64,000 nt of DNA, taken from positions 1,927,001 through 1,991,000 of the forward strand of contig CP029803.1 of the NCBI GenBank assembly GCA_003226295.1. The letters run 5' to 3'. This DNA is from Candidatus Moanabacter tarae (GTDB lineage: Bacteria; Verrucomicrobiota; Verrucomicrobiia; Opitutales; UBA2987). A program made the translations under genes and the position numbers. The notes under the pieces were generated by a model. The model was not told the DNA's origin. It saw nothing but the letters and a program-made list of their open reading frames with translations, and did not search any database. Shown piece by piece: positions 6,583-19,021 of the stretch. Numbering within the stretch: position 1 is the first letter of the stretch; the number at the start of each line of letters is the position of its first letter.

Positions 6583-9500
6583 ATGGCGATAATAGAGCAG
6601 GAGCCTAGGTATTTCTGTCGGACGATCGGTAAAAAAGGTGGATCACTTGGACCGGTCCTCCGCCAGTTATGTTTCCTAGTGATTCTTTTCATGGTCGGAC
6701 ATGTAGCATTCGCCCGAGACGATACGCCGGGCGGCCAACCAAACGAGCCACCACCAGTACCTGAGACAGACGATCCGACAATAGACGGATGGGATTCAGA
6801 AGTCTTTGCCGAACTCGCAAATAAGCAGTTAAAGCGTATTGGAGAACTGATACTTGACCCATCAAAAATAGGCCAGTCGGATTTTAAGACTCTCGCAGCA
6901 CCTGGATTCTCATCCACAAACCTGCTCCCACAGAATCTTGAGACAGGATTTGAAGATCGCGCCATCACAGTAAAGTTCTGGTTAGGCTCTGCGGAAAATG
7001 TTCAAGACAACAAACCTCATCAAGGTGCTGAGGGCCTGGCTAATGTCCTTGCAGATCTTGTGACCCCTTTCGAAGGGGCTTCTGACATCCGCTTCGAGGT
7101 AAAGATCTTTCGGGTCCAAAAGCACGATAACGGGGAAACAACCACCGAACAATACTTTACGCTTAGCGGACTTCGTGAGACAGGCTCTCTCGAACAACAC
7201 TCGACTTGGATATGCCGATGGACGCAGGGCAAAGAATCCCAACCACCACTCCTAAAATCCATCACTCTGACAGAGTATGAGCAGACACAAGTCGATTCCA
7301 ATATGCAGGTTTTATTTTCCGACTGTACCGCGTCCGTGGTGGGCCAGAATGACGACTTTAACTCCCAAATGTCACGTGGTACATTCGACTGGTCAGCTCT
7401 TATTGAAGCTACGATGGCGATCGATATTCCCGCCTACCAAGGGCTTGCTGTCGGTGATGTCAACGGAGATGGATTGGATGATGTGTATTTCTGTCAAAAC
7501 GGTGGACTTCCGAATCGACTGTTGATACAAAACGTCGACGGCACAGCCAGCGACCGATCGAAGTGGGCGGGCGTCGACTGGTTGGATCGAACTCGTTGTG
7601 CTCTCTTCGTCGACCTGGACAATGATGGCGACGAAGACCTCGTCTTGGGTATGCGCTCCGGTCTGATGTTTTTATCCAACAACGGGCATGGGCGTTTTGA
7701 ACGGAAAACAATGATTAAGGAGGCGGAGCAAGCATTTGGATTAGCAGCCGCCGACTACGACCTTGATGGAGATCTCGACGTCTACGTTAGCCGCTATATG
7801 CGGCCCGGTCTAACCTGGGATGTACCAAATCCCGTCCCGTACCACGACGCTAACAATGGACCTAGAAACTTGTTGTTGCGAAATGATGACGATTGGGAAT
7901 TTACAAATGCCACGGTTGAGACTGGGCTAGATGTTGACAATCAAAGATGGACTCTCGCCTCCAGCTGGGAGGACTATGACCAAGATGGAGATCCCGACCT
8001 TTACGTAGCCAATGATTTTGGCCGCAACTGTCTCTATCGCAACGACGGGGGACAATTTAAAAATGTCGCGGCTGAGTCCGGAATCGAAGACATGGCTTCA
8101 GGTATGTCGACTGATTGGGGTGATTTTAACCGCGACGGATGGATGGATCTTTATATCGGAAATATGTGGTCTTCCGCCGGCGGACGGATCACCTTTCACC
8201 CCCAATTCCAGCCAGGATCCAACCGATCGACTAAGGTTAAACTCCAGCGTCTCGCCCGAGGAAACAGTCTTTTTTCCAACAATGGGGACGGTACTTTTTC
8301 CGATGTCAGCGTCGCTTATGGAGTTACCATGGGGCGTTGGGCTTGGAGTTCCGTATTTTCAGATGTCAATAATGACGGATGGGAGGATCTTATTATTGCC
8401 AATGGCTTTGTTAGTGCTCCAGATAGTGGAGATTTGTGAAGTTTCTTTTGGCGGCAGGTCGTGTCGCGGTCACCACCTACACCAGTCGGAATAGATTCAG
8501 CAAGTGATTATGTCGAGGCATTCCAAACGCTCTACCGCATGCTGGCAGAAGGTCGCTCATTTAGCGGTTACGAGCGAAATTGTGTCTTCCTTAATACAGA
8601 GGGACGGAAGTTCGCAAACATCTCGGCGACGAGCGGGTTAGACTTCATTGACGACGGGCGCGGTGTAGCAACCGTTGATTGGGACTCTGATGGAGACTTG
8701 GACCTCTGGATTTCCAATCGTACGGCTCCACTGGTGCGTTTTGTACGCAACGACACACCGTCGACGAATCACTATCTGGCCGTTCGTCTAATCGGTAAAC
8801 ACGTTAACCGTGATGCGATCGGCGCACGCGTCGCAATTCATATGGACAACGAGCAAAAAGAGCCCACCAGGCTCGTTAAGACTCTTTCCGCAGGTAGCGG
8901 ATTTGTCGCCCAATCTAGTAAATGGTTGCATTTCGGTCTGGGCTCGAGATCCGATATCGACCGTTTGGTAGTCCACTGGCCGGGCGGGTTAGAAGAAACT
9001 TTCACTTCCATCGAAGCAGATCGGCGCTACACAATTGTGGAAGGAAGCAGCCGGGCAGAATTATTATCTGCGCCAGCTAGAAGGGTAAATCTAACTGCTT
9101 CCAGCATTGATCCCTCAGCCCCCAGCACCGTAGGCCGTATCTTCCTCCCAATGGGGCCTGATGCACCAATATTATCTTATCAAGATTGGAATGGGAACAA
9201 TTATTCGATTGGGAAGACCTTCAACAGCCCTTTGCTGATAAACCTTTGGGCAAGCTGGTGTGTGCCCTGCCACGCGGAACTTAACGATCTAACCGAAAAT
9301 GAAGACCGACTTAGAAAGGCTGGATTAGAAATACTTGCTTTGAGTGTGGACGGTCTGGATGAAAACAAAGCTACAAAACCCTCGGACGCCCGAAAACATC
9401 TAGAGCGGATTGGATTCCCGTTTCCCAGAGGGCTCGCTACACCAAGCATGTTAAACAAGTTTCAAATCCTCCTCGACACGATTTTCTATCGAGTAATCCC

Positions 9501-10680
9501 TCTGGCCGTTCCCACGAGTTTTCTCGTCGACACCGAGGGTAGGATTCGGGCTGTCTATCGGGGGCCCGTTGACATCACCTCTTTACTAGCAGACGTGGAC
9601 CATCTCGAGGCGGACACAGATGTGCAATTAGCCCGGGCCGTCCCATTCCCCGGACGTTGGGAAGAGAAACCCCGCCCTATCGGCGCAATCTCGTTAGCGC
9701 GACAGTTCGAAAAGGGCGAATTTACCCGGGATGTTGTTAAGTACCTCCGGAAGGCAATTGTTGAAATGCCCGACAATGCGTATATTGAACTGTTTCTGGG
9801 ACAGAGCCTGGATAGTATCGGCTCATTTGATGAAGCAATCTTACACTATCGCCGGACTCTGGACCTAGATCCGCACCAACCAAAGGCGAGAAATAACCTT
9901 GGGGTTGCCCTCCAAACAACGGGGAAAACTGAAGAAGCTATAAACCAGTTTAGAAAGGCCCTCGAGTCCGAACCCGACTATATTGACGCGCACTTTAACC
10001 TGGGTTTAGTTCTCAGCAGCAAACAGCATTTTAATGATGCGATAAGTCACTTTCGAAAAGTCTTAAGACACGATCCCGGAAGGGCCGAAGCTCAACTACA
10101 CCTTGGTCAAGCCCTGCAAAGCCAAGGCCTGTTCGAAAAAGCGGAGGATCGTTATCGCCAGGCGCTCTCCGTAAATCCAAAACTGGCTAAAGCGAATGTC
10201 CTTTTGGGCCGCCTGATGCAACAACAGGGCAGGTTAGTCGAAGCCATTGGCCAATATCGCAGAGCGGTGCGTACCCAGCCCGATTTGGCTATCGCACATT
10301 ACAACCTTGGAATCGCTTTAATCGCCATCGATCTGCAATCTGAGGCCTTGAAAGCCTTACAGGAAGCAGGACGCATTGATCCCAACTGGCCGGCCCCCTT
10401 AGGCGTGGCCGCATGGGTCTATGCCACAACAAACGACACCAATCTGCGAGCACCTGAAAAGGCAATAGCTCTCGCCAAGCAAGCGGCCCTGCTCAACAGC
10501 GAACCAGATCCTGTCATATTCGAAACTTTGGCAGCAGCCTACGCCTCTCAGGGGGAGTATATTAAGGCCGCGGAATATCTTCAACTCGCGATTGAGTTAC
10601 TACCGCCAGGAACGCAAACTGAGGCACTAAGAAGCCTCCTTAATGGCTACCGGCACAAAGAAGAGCCAAAGGATCAATAA
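6583..10680 (+). CDS. Exported FG-GAP/UnbV/thioredoxin-like/TPR fusion protein with in-frame TGA at codon 619 (candidate selenoprotein)
   Basis: Read through TGA 8437-8439, the frame is open for 1,365 residues. Order: signal peptide (hydrophobic core about 28-42, AFA cleavage near 44); FG-GAP/VCBS calcium-type repeats starting at D292, D344, D391, D465, D514, D594 and D699; ASPIC/UnbV domain about 730-822; thioredoxin-like domain about 850-1010 with CVPC at 893-896; then about seven TPR units, 1040-1350. The TGA falls inside the propeller region, and SFFWRQVVS follows at once in the same frame. The part after TGA has no signal peptide and no convincing start: GTG 8461 lacks a good ribosome site. 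The family (CRTAC1-like) is exported. Selenocysteine is the preferred reading. A nonsense mutation, sequencing error or two-part gene are the alternatives. TGA is an ordinary stop elsewhere here (rplU, rpmA). Confidence 0.75.
8437..8439 (+). other. In-frame UGA, candidate selenocysteine codon 619
   Basis: The TGA lies between GDL and SFFWRQVVS in one unbroken frame; 8461 minus 6583 is divisible by three, and no other in-frame stop occurs between 6583 and 10680. It is followed by A, a context used at bacterial UGA-Sec codons as well as at stops. Recoding is inferred from frame and domain continuity plus the hairpin at 8456-8478, not proven. Confidence 0.6.
8456..8478 (+). promoter_or_regulatory. 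Candidate bacterial SECIS-like hairpin downstream of UGA 8437
   Basis: AGGT (8456-8459) pairs with ACCT (8475-8478), one C-C mismatch follows (8460/8474), then GTG (8461-8463) pairs with CAC (8471-8473), closing a seven-base loop TCGCGGT that contains a GG. The loop begins 24 bases after the UGA, within the window described for bacterial SECIS elements, which sit in the coding sequence just 3' of the codon. The loop lacks a G in its first two bases, a departure from the common consensus. Short hairpins also arise by chance. Confidence 0.45.
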
Positions 10681-13798: not shown

Positions 13799-16700
13799 TT
13801 GTCGGACAAAACTCCATATTCTCATGACCAGACCTATTCGGGTCGAATCAGTGCCGCGCTTCTTGGATTAGCTCTCTTTCTGGTCCTAGCTCTGGTTTAC
13901 TTTTATCTTGCCTCACCCGATCAGATCTTCCAGCGCTTTGATCCTTTCGAGGACTACCCTATGACCCCGATGCAGGATGCGGTGGAGGTAGAAAAGGTAA
14001 AAAATGAGCACCAGGCTATCCTTGATCTCGGATCTCGATTCACAGGCCAACCTGGTTATCACCAAACCGCCAATCACATCCGAAATGCTTATGAGCAGGC
14101 CGGCCTAGAAATTTATACCCAGGAATTTCAATCTGTTGCTCCCAAAACTGCCTATCGTGAGATCAGCCAGGTGCATCGGAACATCGATGGGGGCCCGTGG
14201 CATCTAGAGCCAATTGATAACGTCTCGATTTACCCTTTCTTTCCGAATTTCTTACAAGCCGTTGCGACTCCACCCGGGGGAATGGTGGGAGAGGTTGTTC
14301 TTATAAACGAGAAGACTCTTAATACTCGACAAAGTTTTGACGGGTGCATTGGCCTTATTGATAGTCGAGAAGAAAACGTTCCCCAGGGGTATGGCTTTGA
14401 CTGGACCCGCTACGCCAATCTCGGGATCGAGGCCCTTATTATCTCCCATTCAGAAGGTCTTCACAGTGCCCCATGGATGAAATTCTCCCCTAGTGACGAC
14501 ACCTGGGCAATGGTCTCGAGTGTTCCGATCAACTACGTTCGGTTGGCTGCCACCAAGGAGATTTTTAACTATATTGGTAAGGAAATTCATCTCCGGGTTC
14601 GAGTTGACTATAAGCGCGTCGACGATCTCAACCTCTTCGGAGTATTAAGGTCCGCCCAACCATCCAAAGAAGCCATCCTATTTGTGGCCCCCTATGATGC
14701 TCCATCGATTATCCCAGATCTAGCGCCCGGCATCCTGCCGGCTATCTCGCCAGCATTTCAGCTTCGTCTCCTACAAGGGCTGCTTCCCTACGCTAAAACT
14801 CTGCAGCGCGATATTATCTTTGCTAGCATGGGGTCCAGCTCCATGGGCGAAGAGGGGCACAACAACTTAATGCGTGTTATTGGTAGAAGGAATCGAAACT
14901 TTAAGCCGGACCGATCGCTTAATCTAGGGGAGGCTGCCTCAAACCGAGATCAGTTTGACAGTGTGGAGCTGGACGACGGCGATCCCCGACAGGTACTCCT
15001 CGCTGCTAGTTGGGAGGAAAATGAGCGTCAGGGCTTACTGGTAGAAGAGGTTCTCAGATTGCTCGAGATAGAGAATTTTGCGAGGGACCCTGAATCGACA
15101 AAGCAGATGCTCCGCGAGCTTGATCGGACCGTCCGTAAATTTGCTGAAGAACAATTTGGATACGTAGTTAAAACTCTGGCATTCGAGTTAAGTGAGCCGC
15201 TCATGGCAACCAAGCTCGAGGTTGAACGCGAGGGCGGTACTGCCAATGTCGACAGCAAAGCTTTTCACAATTATCTCGAGGCGCGAAAAGAATACAACGA
15301 TGCTTATGTTGCCAGCGGTTACCAAATGAGCAGCTTGCTCCGGAATAAGCCAGAAACGGTGGAGCAATACTCTATCCGCAATCGATTTCTCCACCGGATG
15401 AAGGATCTTAAACGCCTTCACGATCGCCGGCGCCGTGAGTTAAAGCAGGAGGAAAACCTTCTGAACCTATTCAGTCAATATGAGCGTATAGGGTTGTTCT
15501 CCACTAGACTGGCTCCGGCCCCACCTCAAAGCAATCAGGAAACGGAGTACGTGAGTAGCGGATCTGGTGTCGCAAATATCCAATCCACTATCCATACGAT
15601 TCCCCTTCGAATAATGAATCGTGCCAAACGACGCCTAGCGATTGGGGTTGATCTGGAGGTACCTCCTGCGGGAGAGAGGCAGGACCAGTTGATCGGTCGA
15701 CATACTGGCTATTTTGTCTCTCGCAATGTTTCGACATACTGGGGAAATCTCGGATTTCCCACATTCTACATCTACAACCTCGAGAGAATAAAAAGCTTCT
15801 CTCACTACGCATCACCGGTCGATCTCCCTTTCATGCGAGATCTAGAAACTCTTTCCAATACATTTAAGATTGTCGGCGAAACTCTCCTTTCCCTGGCTCA
15901 TGCAAACGGCAGCCTTGAAGCCCATCATATTTCAGTTAACCAAGTAAGTAGAGAATTCGGAGGACGTGTCCTGGCTGCCGAGATCGGTCAGTCCTTGATA
16001 CCCAATTATCCCGTCAAAGACGCCCTCGTAGCCTGTCGCTCTCCCACCAACAAGAATGTCTGGGCGTTCCCTGGCCACTATCGTCACCCCATTCTCATGA
16101 CCGATGATTACGGTCGCTATCGGGTTTCCCGAACCTACAACGTATTCCCCGTCTATTCTAGCGTGGGTAGAGATTCAGGCCTAATCGCACCCCTCGCTGT
16201 GAGGATCGGAGAAGACGGTATAATCTCCCACATTAAGGACGAAGGAAATGTTACCCAACGATCCTTCAAGTCCACCAAAGTGCCATGGTGGAAAGCACAG
16301 GATCTCACCCTCATAATTTTCCCTGCCGCCCCCATTACGGTTCTAGATCTCATCAACCCGCAGACCCTCCGCGAGTATGCTGGGGTTAAGATGATCCGGA
16401 GTAAAGGAATGGCAACTCCAGATCGATTCTGCTTCTTTGAAAACCGGGGACTCGTTGCCACATTTCTAGAGCCTGACCAGCGTTGTTTCGTAGAGCTGCA
16501 ATCAGGAGCCCAAGAACACGAACGCGCGAAGGTCACCCGTGCCTTCCTAACGAATGTCGATGAAATGCCGCTCAGTGACCGCAAGGAAGAGATTGATGGC
16601 GAAGGCTATCTGGTCGGTGATCACCCTTTTGTGCGCAATCTTCCCGCCGAAGTGGCCCATTCCATGGCCTACGTTAACGGTCGACGCCTCGACCTACAGA

Positions 16701-19021
16701 ACTCTTACGGGATGGCCGACGAGAGAACCAACCGGTACCATGAAAAGGTAACGACCCATATCGATCAGAGTCAGACAATCAATTTGAGTAAGAAGGATTC
16801 GATCCGTGAGGCTCGCCAGGCCGTAACCTACGCAACCCTTAACCATCCTGTACTGCGCGAATCTATTATGGAAGCCGTTGTAGGGATTCTTTGGTATCTC
16901 GCCTTGCTCGTGCCCTTTGTCTTCTTCTTCGAAAAACTCATGTTTTGTTTCCCTGATGTCCGTAAGCAAATAATCGCCCAGGCAATCATCTTTCTGGTCG
17001 TTTTTGCACTCTTACGCATCCTCCATCCAGCTTTCGCGATGGTTCGATCCTCTCTCATGATTCTGCTGGGGTTTATTATCATTCTTATTTCCACGGGAAT
17101 AACGATTCTCTTCACGGGCAAATACAAAGAGAGCTTCAACGAGCTCATGAAAAAACGAGGGAAAGTTGATGCGGCTGAGGTCAATAAATTAGGAGTAATT
17201 GCTTCTGCCTTCATGTTAGGCTTGAATAATATGAACCGACGGAAGGCCCGCACCGGACTTACGTGTGCCACTCTTTCGATGATTACTTTTGTCATCATTT
17301 GCTTTGCTTCCATTCAAGATGACCTTGTTGAGGATAACGTCGCCACTGGGAAAGCAATTTATAATGGGTTTCTTTTAAAGCAGGAAGAAATGGCTGCCTT
17401 CCGACCCAGTGAGATCCAGGCAATAGAAGAGAAATATGGGGACCGTTACGAAGTTTGTCCTCGGTTTATGCGGACCGGTCACGAAGACTTCCGGCTCCGG
17501 CGCCGTAACCCAGATCTCGAAATCAGTTACAAAAAAGGTCTTCAAACCCGACAAGTCGGGTTTGATTCAGTCATTCGTCTCAAACACAACGATCCGATTC
17601 GAAACCAAATCCGCATCCTAACTGATACTGAATGGTTCACGGAGCAAGATGAAATTAGTTCCGCCAATCTTATTCCTGTATTCATTCCGGATGCTATGGC
17701 TGAGCGGTTAAGCATATCAGTCCATCAGGTAAACACTCAAGATGTGATAGTCTGGATAAACGGTGAAGAATGTGAAGTCCGTGGTATATTTGATTCTGAA
17801 GCTTACAACAATATGGCTGATCTCGACGGCTATCGCGTGCTGCCATTCGATGTTACTGCTATCGAGGTATTGACTAAAACGGCAAACGGGGTCGTAGCCA
17901 GCGAAGACGAGCCGAAAATTCCAGCTGACAAAATTATTCTACTCCCCTACAGCGATCACAGATTTGTCGTCAATGAAGGAGATGAAAGAATCATCTCGGT
18001 AGCCATCTCGATGCCCGGGGCTGGGCGCAAAGAAATCAAAACGGTGATTAACGGATATTTGGAACAAACCACTAAACCCCTTTCCTATGGTCTTGAAGGT
18101 GTGGCCTACTGGGGACGTCACACCCGAGAAGCAAAAATCGGTGATTTCCTCGATCTGATAATCCCTTTGTTCATTGCTGCCTTTACTGTTCTCAACACTA
18201 TGCGTGGATCAGTCTATGAGAGACGAGACGAGATCTATGTCTACAATTCCGTCGGGATCGCCCCCCGAAATATCTTCTTCATGTTCCTCACTGAAGCTTT
18301 CGTATACGCAGTAGTAGGTTCAGTGCTGGGATATATCTTAAGTCAGGGCACGGGTCGTATTCTCACCGCACTCGATATGACCGGCGGCCTGAACATGACC
18401 TTCACTTCACTTACTACAATATACGCTTCTGTGGTCCTCTTTGGTGCCGTCCTGTTTTCGACCTACTTCCCTGCCAAATCAGCTATGGAGATCGCCGCAC
18501 CGGCCGAAGATGCCGGCTGGTCCCTTCCGGAACCTCAAGGAAATTTTCTGCACTTTCACCTCCCCTTTACTTTCAACCGGGAAGGCCGTGTAGGTATCCT
18601 TGCGTTTTTTGATCGAAAACTTCTCGATCATGGGGAAGGAGGTTCAGGACGTTTTTTCTCTAATCAACCCAAATTCTTCGTCGCACCGGAAAAACATCCC
18701 CTCGTAGATAAAACCTATGTTCCAGCAATAAGTGCCACCGTTTGGCTAAAACCATTCGACCAAGCAGTCTCCCAGAATCTCACTATTGCTATGCCGCCTG
18801 ACGAAGAAGCACGAGAATACAAAGTCCGAATCGAGATAGAACGACTTTCCGGTACCCGGGATTCCTGGCTCCGCCTCAATAGAGACTTTGTCTCACAGCT
18901 CCGGCAACATTTCCTCCACTGGCGCGCGCTTAGCCCCGAAGATCGAGAAGAGCTTTTCTCTGAAGCTAAAGAGGAATTGGAAAAATCCTTCTCCCATGAG
19001 CTGACCTCTGCGGTTACTTAA
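13799..19021 (+). CDS. Fusion of degenerate M28-peptidase-like ectodomain and FtsX-type permease
   Basis: 1,740 residues from TTG 13799; an early membrane segment (about 20-38) supports this start. A PA-like segment (about 155-235) and an M28-peptidase-like fold (about 240-400) follow. The expected zinc and base residues look lost: the HxD motif reads APYDA (P298, D300) and the GGEE motif reads MGSSSMG (345-350). A carboxypeptidase-regulatory-like stretch follows near 770. Membrane helices at about 1030-1048, 1058-1078, 1087-1107, 1150-1172, 1447-1467, 1492-1515 and 1540-1560 frame an FtsX/MacB-type permease, whose last helices show the usual VYERRDEIYVYNSVG-type loop. A soluble C-terminal domain ends the protein. 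FtsX permeases normally pair with an ABC ATPase; none lies nearby. Substrate unknown. Confidence 0.75.
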   Translation: MSDKTPYSHDQTYSGRISAALLGLALFLVLALVYFYLASPDQIFQRFDPFEDYPMTPMQDAVEVEKVKNEHQAILDLGSRFTGQPGYHQTANHIRNAYEQAGLEIYTQEFQSVAPKTAYREISQVHRNIDGGPWHLEPIDNVSIYPFFPNFLQAVATPPGGMVGEVVLINEKTLNTRQSFDGCIGLIDSREENVPQGYGFDWTRYANLGIEALIISHSEGLHSAPWMKFSPSDDTWAMVSSVPINYVRLAATKEIFNYIGKEIHLRVRVDYKRVDDLNLFGVLRSAQPSKEAILFVAPYDAPSIIPDLAPGILPAISPAFQLRLLQGLLPYAKTLQRDIIFASMGSSSMGEEGHNNLMRVIGRRNRNFKPDRSLNLGEAASNRDQFDSVELDDGDPRQVLLAASWEENERQGLLVEEVLRLLEIENFARDPESTKQMLRELDRTVRKFAEEQFGYVVKTLAFELSEPLMATKLEVEREGGTANVDSKAFHNYLEARKEYNDAYVASGYQMSSLLRNKPETVEQYSIRNRFLHRMKDLKRLHDRRRRELKQEENLLNLFSQYERIGLFSTRLAPAPPQSNQETEYVSSGSGVANIQSTIHTIPLRIMNRAKRRLAIGVDLEVPPAGERQDQLIGRHTGYFVSRNVSTYWGNLGFPTFYIYNLERIKSFSHYASPVDLPFMRDLETLSNTFKIVGETLLSLAHANGSLEAHHISVNQVSREFGGRVLAAEIGQSLIPNYPVKDALVACRSPTNKNVWAFPGHYRHPILMTDDYGRYRVSRTYNVFPVYSSVGRDSGLIAPLAVRIGEDGIISHIKDEGNVTQRSFKSTKVPWWKAQDLTLIIFPAAPITVLDLINPQTLREYAGVKMIRSKGMATPDRFCFFENRGLVATFLEPDQRCFVELQSGAQEHERAKVTRAFLTNVDEMPLSDRKEEIDGEGYLVGDHPFVRNLPAEVAHSMAYVNGRRLDLQNSYGMADERTNRYHEKVTTHIDQSQTINLSKKDSIREARQAVTYATLNHPVLRESIMEAVVGILWYLALLVPFVFFFEKLMFCFPDVRKQIIAQAIIFLVVFALLRILHPAFAMVRSSLMILLGFIIILISTGITILFTGKYKESFNELMKKRGKVDAAEVNKLGVIASAFMLGLNNMNRRKARTGLTCATLSMITFVIICFASIQDDLVEDNVATGKAIYNGFLLKQEEMAAFRPSEIQAIEEKYGDRYEVCPRFMRTGHEDFRLRRRNPDLEISYKKGLQTRQVGFDSVIRLKHNDPIRNQIRILTDTEWFTEQDEISSANLIPVFIPDAMAERLSISVHQVNTQDVIVWINGEECEVRGIFDSEAYNNMADLDGYRVLPFDVTAIEVLTKTANGVVASEDEPKIPADKIILLPYSDHRFVVNEGDERIISVAISMPGAGRKEIKTVINGYLEQTTKPLSYGLEGVAYWGRHTREAKIGDFLDLIIPLFIAAFTVLNTMRGSVYERRDEIYVYNSVGIAPRNIFFMFLTEAFVYAVVGSVLGYILSQGTGRILTALDMTGGLNMTFTSLTTIYASVVLFGAVLFSTYFPAKSAMEIAAPAEDAGWSLPEPQGNFLHFHLPFTFNREGRVGILAFFDRKLLDHGEGGSGRFFSNQPKFFVAPEKHPLVDKTYVPAISATVWLKPFDQAVSQNLTIAMPPDEEAREYKVRIEIERLSGTRDSWLRLNRDFVSQLRQHFLHWRALSPEDREELFSEAKEELEKSFSHELTSAVT

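Follow-up and report, generated by a model that had tools for sequence, protein, structure and literature searches.

The locus at 6583–10680 of the window (the whole 64,000-nucleotide stretch of DNA that was analyzed) raises the question of whether a TGA codon in the middle of a long reading frame ends a gene or specifies selenocysteine (Sec). Translation bore out the description given in an earlier note on this DNA, in that the TGA at 8437–8439 is the sole internal stop of the frame, where it occupies codon 619 in the context GDL-U-SFFWRQ (U denotes the TGA in this and other motifs). The frame remains open for 746 codons after this TGA, an outcome with a chance of ~2e-17 at the local composition. 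TGA is the stop of 14 of the 40 window ORFs of at least 200 aa, a count that includes this gene, and for the other 13 TGA-ended ORFs the frame stays open for just 1 to 45 codons past the stop. The features of the gene are as follows.

6583–10680, + strand: selenoprotein gene, one 1,365-codon frame with UGA predicted to be read as Sec (translation; start codon putative)
6655–6717, + strand: predicted N-terminal export signal, VLRQLCFLVILFMVGHVAFA (read from the sequence by hydrophobicity)
7435–8742, + strand: FG-GAP beta-propeller of the CRTAC1 type (Pfam; AF2 model with pLDDT of 89; best Foldseek match 9etn, CRTAC1)
8437–8439, + strand: predicted Sec codon UGA, residue 619 (TGA in 77/77 close homologues, Cys in another clade)
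8451–8467, + strand: predicted SECIS hairpin, 6-bp stem 8451–8456/8462–8467 with loop GGUCG at 8457–8461 (covariation; fold of -8.9 kcal/mol; bSECIS constraints)
8815–9033, + strand: UnbV/ASPIC domain, residues 745–817 (Pfam)
9154–9552, + strand: TlpA/AhpC-TSA thioredoxin-like domain, residues 858–990 (Pfam PF00578 above cut-off; multi-domain AF2 pTM of 0.90)
9259–9270, + strand: CVPC redox motif, residues 893–896 (CxxC in 45/45 Sec members, lost in 12/13 non-Sec paralogues)
9724–10620, + strand: TPR repeats, residues about 1048–1346 (Pfam; vary between members)

Annotation pipelines would call two ORFs here, of 618 and 739 aa, as they would if the TGA were a normal stop that disrupted a pseudogene or separated two adjacent genes. 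The hydrophobic export signal is present only at the N-terminus of the full frame, and its absence from the second ORF argues against a split gene. FG-GAP repeats (Pfam) flank codon 619 on both sides, as had also been noted earlier. Lipobox-like signals were read from the N-terminal sequences of other family members. Elsewhere in the window, an FtsX-type protein of 1,740 aa is encoded from a TTG codon at 13799–19021, and its N-terminal part appears peptidase-like by eye.

Homologues were sought with only the part of the protein after the TGA as the query, the TGA itself being excluded, so that the search carried no bias toward homologues with TGA at the same codon. The first relatives found came from four MAGs (one of Planctomycetaceae, another of Planctomycetota, one of Verrucomicrobiales, and one of Latescibacterota), and all of them had TGA at the identical codon within the motif DL-U-SFFWRQVVS or a near-identical one. 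The aligned column contained TGA in 77 sequences, corresponding to every close homologue found (Planctomycetota, Verrucomicrobiota, and Latescibacterota), and Cys (TGC or TGT) in 8 distant homologues with the motif NGHxSG..DY-C-TxFW..D.Y.G, all from the window's own order. Paralogues had E, D, Q, A, N, H, R, or S at this position. The locus thus presents the pattern by which bacterial selenoproteins are recognized, namely an in-frame UGA with conserved flanks that aligns with TGA and Cys homologues. The proposal that codon 619 is Sec is well supported by this alignment, and decoding of UGA 8437–8439 as Sec is, on comparative sequence evidence, close to certain.

The same data bear on two simpler explanations. 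With TGA at the same codon across phyla, the frame kept on both sides of it, and a covarying SECIS element downstream, a nonsense mutation or split gene is very improbable, and we regard it as refuted by the conservation of the TGA. A sequencing or assembly error at 8437, a possibility that the earlier note had raised, has a negligible probability, with no evidence found in its favor, and is likewise refuted: many other genomes independently carry the identical TGA, which is shared by several paralogues within a genome, and it is therefore not a read error.

Family matches were detected in 107 of 392 Planctomycetota genomes (profile A3, threshold of E ≤ 1e-20), with most matches containing exactly one TGA and genomes often carrying several copies. 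Just one other sampled genome of the window's own phylum contained the family, in three copies, all with TGA. Searching the phylum to which the Verrucomicrobiales MAG belongs gave identical matches, which places the window in a Verrucomicrobiota genome. The Verrucomicrobiales MAG harbored at least 8 copies, again all with TGA, and the family was present in 1 of 80 Latescibacterota genomes. On the tree, the Cys sequences grouped as a single clade, and the Sec group contained several losses of Sec, with at least three non-Sec label changes being forced by well-supported branches. The Cys-form sequences (L035–L042) came from genomes without SelB, and those whose C-terminus was inspected showed no TlpA extension. 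One match (L150, G547) contained three in-frame TGAs, indicative of either extra Sec residues or a damaged gene, and the Latescibacterota homologue (L012, about 5165) showed a frame change past the Sec site, reflecting either an assembly error or a broken gene. A search of a plasmid collection returned only distant CRTAC1-family relatives. No conserved gene neighbors were found apart from sulfatases adjoining 5 loci, and sulfatases are common in these phyla.

The genome, assembled as a single contig of 2.63 Mb and 98% complete, carries the machinery for Sec insertion. All four genes that the earlier note had proposed to look for were found, with selA (505 bits), selB (300 bits), selD (267 bits), and selC, a tRNA-Sec with a UCA anticodon, all lying within 199.9–206.1 kb as one 6-kb cluster; the complete set is as expected for a selenoprotein-encoding genome. 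In the selD gene of this cluster (G000; L186, 10409–12715), the selD part follows a fused pyridine nucleotide-disulfide oxidoreductase domain (TIGR03169 and TIGR00476). Of 50 tested genomes encoding the TGA form, 44 had a SelB match over the cut-off, compared with 0 of 7 Cys-form genomes (Fisher p of 6e-6) and 11 of 20 Planctomycetota in which the family was not detected (Fisher p of 0.007), relatedness being ignored in both tests. Given that SelB is present in 11 of the 20 Planctomycetota lacking the family, its co-occurrence in that phylum provides weak support. The 6 of 50 TGA-form genomes without a SelB match over the cut-off are perhaps incomplete MAGs.

A genome-wide reassignment of UGA to Trp or another residue would also leave the frame open when TGA is read as a residue. 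However, TGA is an ordinary stop in the window's genome, ending the 13 other window ORFs, and it is the true end of many homologues, so that no code change is indicated. In addition, the other clade has Cys rather than Trp, and tRNA-Sec is present. We consider reassignment to be refuted by these observations, with scarcely any probability left to it.

The DNA downstream of the UGA, AGTTTCTTTTGGCGGCAGGTCGTGTCGC, is strongly conserved, and the SECIS element anticipated there was found as a hairpin with compensatory changes. Over 71 sequences, 99.3% of pair cells in the stem were paired, a value reached by 0 of 500 shuffles, and 4 of the 6 stem pairs showed two-sided changes. These changes included C-G to U-A at 16/30, C-G to G-C at 19/27, and A-U to G-C at 20/26, with pair 18/28 occurring as G-U, A-U, C-G, G-C, and U-A. 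When the partners were slid by one column as a control, pairing fell to 15–17%, and the stem was not kept at the equivalent positions in homologues without Sec. The window hairpin satisfies all of the four published constraints for bacterial SECIS elements (PMC13188914), with a 5-nt loop, two G residues at the beginning of that loop, a distance of 17 nt from the UGA, and a fold of -8.9 kcal/mol. The single-sequence fold of the window hairpin was no better than that of shuffles (z of -0.13), and an Rfam scan of the window returned no matches. In Escherichia coli fdhF, the SECIS likewise has a GG-U apical loop, and its spacing from the UGA is nearly the same, with the stem sequence and the protein differing from those of the window. 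A subfamily of three sequences (L155, L162, and L163) and the single sequences L144 and L158 fitted the hairpin register poorly; the 71-sequence set excluded L155, L162, L163, and L158 and included L144. Judged by eye, this subfamily's loop, GGUC, lies a few bases farther downstream. The members of the subfamily (in G673, G642, and G760, respectively) have TGA at the Sec column within the motif DL-U-PPFWKSVV, and G673 lacks SelB over the cut-off.

We obtained an AlphaFold model of residues 274–843 with 33 homologues as additional input. In this core model (pLDDT of 89, pTM of 0.92), Sec619 corresponds to model residue 346, at the start of helix 345–356. The nearest solved structure was that of murine CRTAC1 (PDB 9etn; profile E of 1.7e-26, Foldseek E of 1.6e-27, TM of 0.66). 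The FG-GAP repeats followed by UnbV_ASPIC, together with the predicted CRTAC1 fold, place the protein in the CRTAC1 and UnbV/ASPIC family. The CVPC site that had been described as thioredoxin-like indeed lies within the AhpC/TSA-type domain. A model with this domain added had a pTM of 0.90, which lends some confidence to the predicted position of the domain, and the CxxC was located at the start of helix 621–632. Pfam and AF2 together thus predict an AhpC/TSA-type thioredoxin fold in which a helix begins at the CxxC, as in a TlpA/ResA domain. The TPR repeats, present only in some members, probably serve protein contacts.

The CxxC pair was invariant in 45 of 45 Sec sequences, the sole selection criterion being that 400 or more residues follow the Sec. 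Among 13 paralogues that lack Sec and retain the TlpA-like domain, 12 have lost the CxxC (replaced, for example, by DPSS, LESL, or DAPS), and the remaining one, a Ser variant, retains it. Such paralogues (L208–L218 and L225) resemble pseudoenzymes. This pattern suggests, at the level of sequence, that Sec and CxxC work together. The tree contains just two or three independent events of co-loss, a number with which a sign test cannot reach significance. The earlier description of the protein as redox-linked is therefore supported by the co-loss, which falls short of proof.

Sec might instead be inserted without acting as a redox nucleophile, serving as a metal ligand or tuning a binding pocket in the propeller, with the TlpA-like domain performing an unrelated job. 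CRTAC1-type propellers bind metal ions. The propeller has no invariant Cys besides the Sec site that could partner Sec, and some members (L180 and L181) have Sec and no TlpA domain, so that a relay in these proteins would need a separate partner. Paralogues carry E, D, Q, N, or H in place of Sec, and replacement of Sec by E, Q, A, N, or H rather than by Cys also counts against the explanation favored below. On the other hand, the CxxC is invariant alongside Sec and lost along with it, and the alternative residue in another clade is Cys. We thus consider a non-redox Sec possible and rather unlikely.

The explanation that we favor overall, and consider highly likely, is that of an exported selenoprotein with a reactive Sec that is recharged by the fused CxxC module. 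UGA 8437–8439 would be read as Sec with the aid of the downstream hairpin and the genome's own selA, selB, selC, and selD, as comparative genomics indicates, and the full-length protein would be exported by virtue of its N-terminal signal. Sec would then lie where a helix of the predicted propeller begins, and the protein may be an oxidoreductase of the periplasm or cell surface in which Sec is the reactive residue. The fused TlpA-like domain may reduce or resolve oxidized Sec outside the cytoplasmic membrane, with electrons possibly being delivered to it as in other TlpA/ResA proteins. For the Sec-CxxC relay as such, the balance tips only slightly in favor.

The earlier note knew of no description of this protein as a selenoprotein family, and the sources searched agree. 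Among the 119 families of prokaryotic selenoproteins inventoried in 2026, there is no FG-GAP, UnbV, or propeller entry, and no NCBIfam model covers the Sec region. Literature searches found nothing that linked UnbV to selenocysteine or FG-GAP to selenoproteins, and no description of a Sec-containing CRTAC1 protein; selenoprotein with CRTAC1 yielded only unrelated human or animal studies, judging by titles and abstracts. A 2016 study (PMC4807772) reported selenoprotein candidates in two Planctomycetes, and a member of the family may be among those in its S9 Table. The family thus appears to be new among selenoprotein families, with a known superfamily as its basis, and apparently undescribed as such. 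We lean toward the view that it is a large, unrecognized selenoenzyme family of Planctomycetota and their relatives, and the first with a Sec-containing CRTAC1-type propeller, extracytoplasmic and equipped with its own fused thioredoxin-like reductase; with several copies per genome, it would be among the more numerous selenoprotein families. A Sec site in a beta-propeller is unusual in belonging neither to a thioredoxin motif nor to a molybdopterin enzyme, and standard annotation conceals it by splitting the gene. Our results imply that many Planctomycetota spend much selenium on exported proteins, and they suggest an enzymatic role for the CRTAC1/UnbV superfamily, most bacterial members of which have had no assigned function. 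In some bacteria, a CRTAC1-family FG-GAP gene adjoins genes for hydrazine-synthase-like subunits (PMC12758564), a further hint of redox partners for the superfamily.

In comparison with known systems, the protein shares with the CRTAC1 family, as represented by murine CRTAC1 (9etn), the domain order of FG-GAP propeller and UnbV/ASPIC as well as the predicted fold, whereas it differs in having Sec on a two-helix insert, followed by TlpA and TPR modules. With the TlpA-type selenoproteins that contain UGC (NF041054, WAxxUGC), it has in common the combination of Sec and a TlpA/ResA-like domain; in the window protein, however, Sec is located in the propeller, and the thioredoxin motif keeps both Cys residues (WCVPC).
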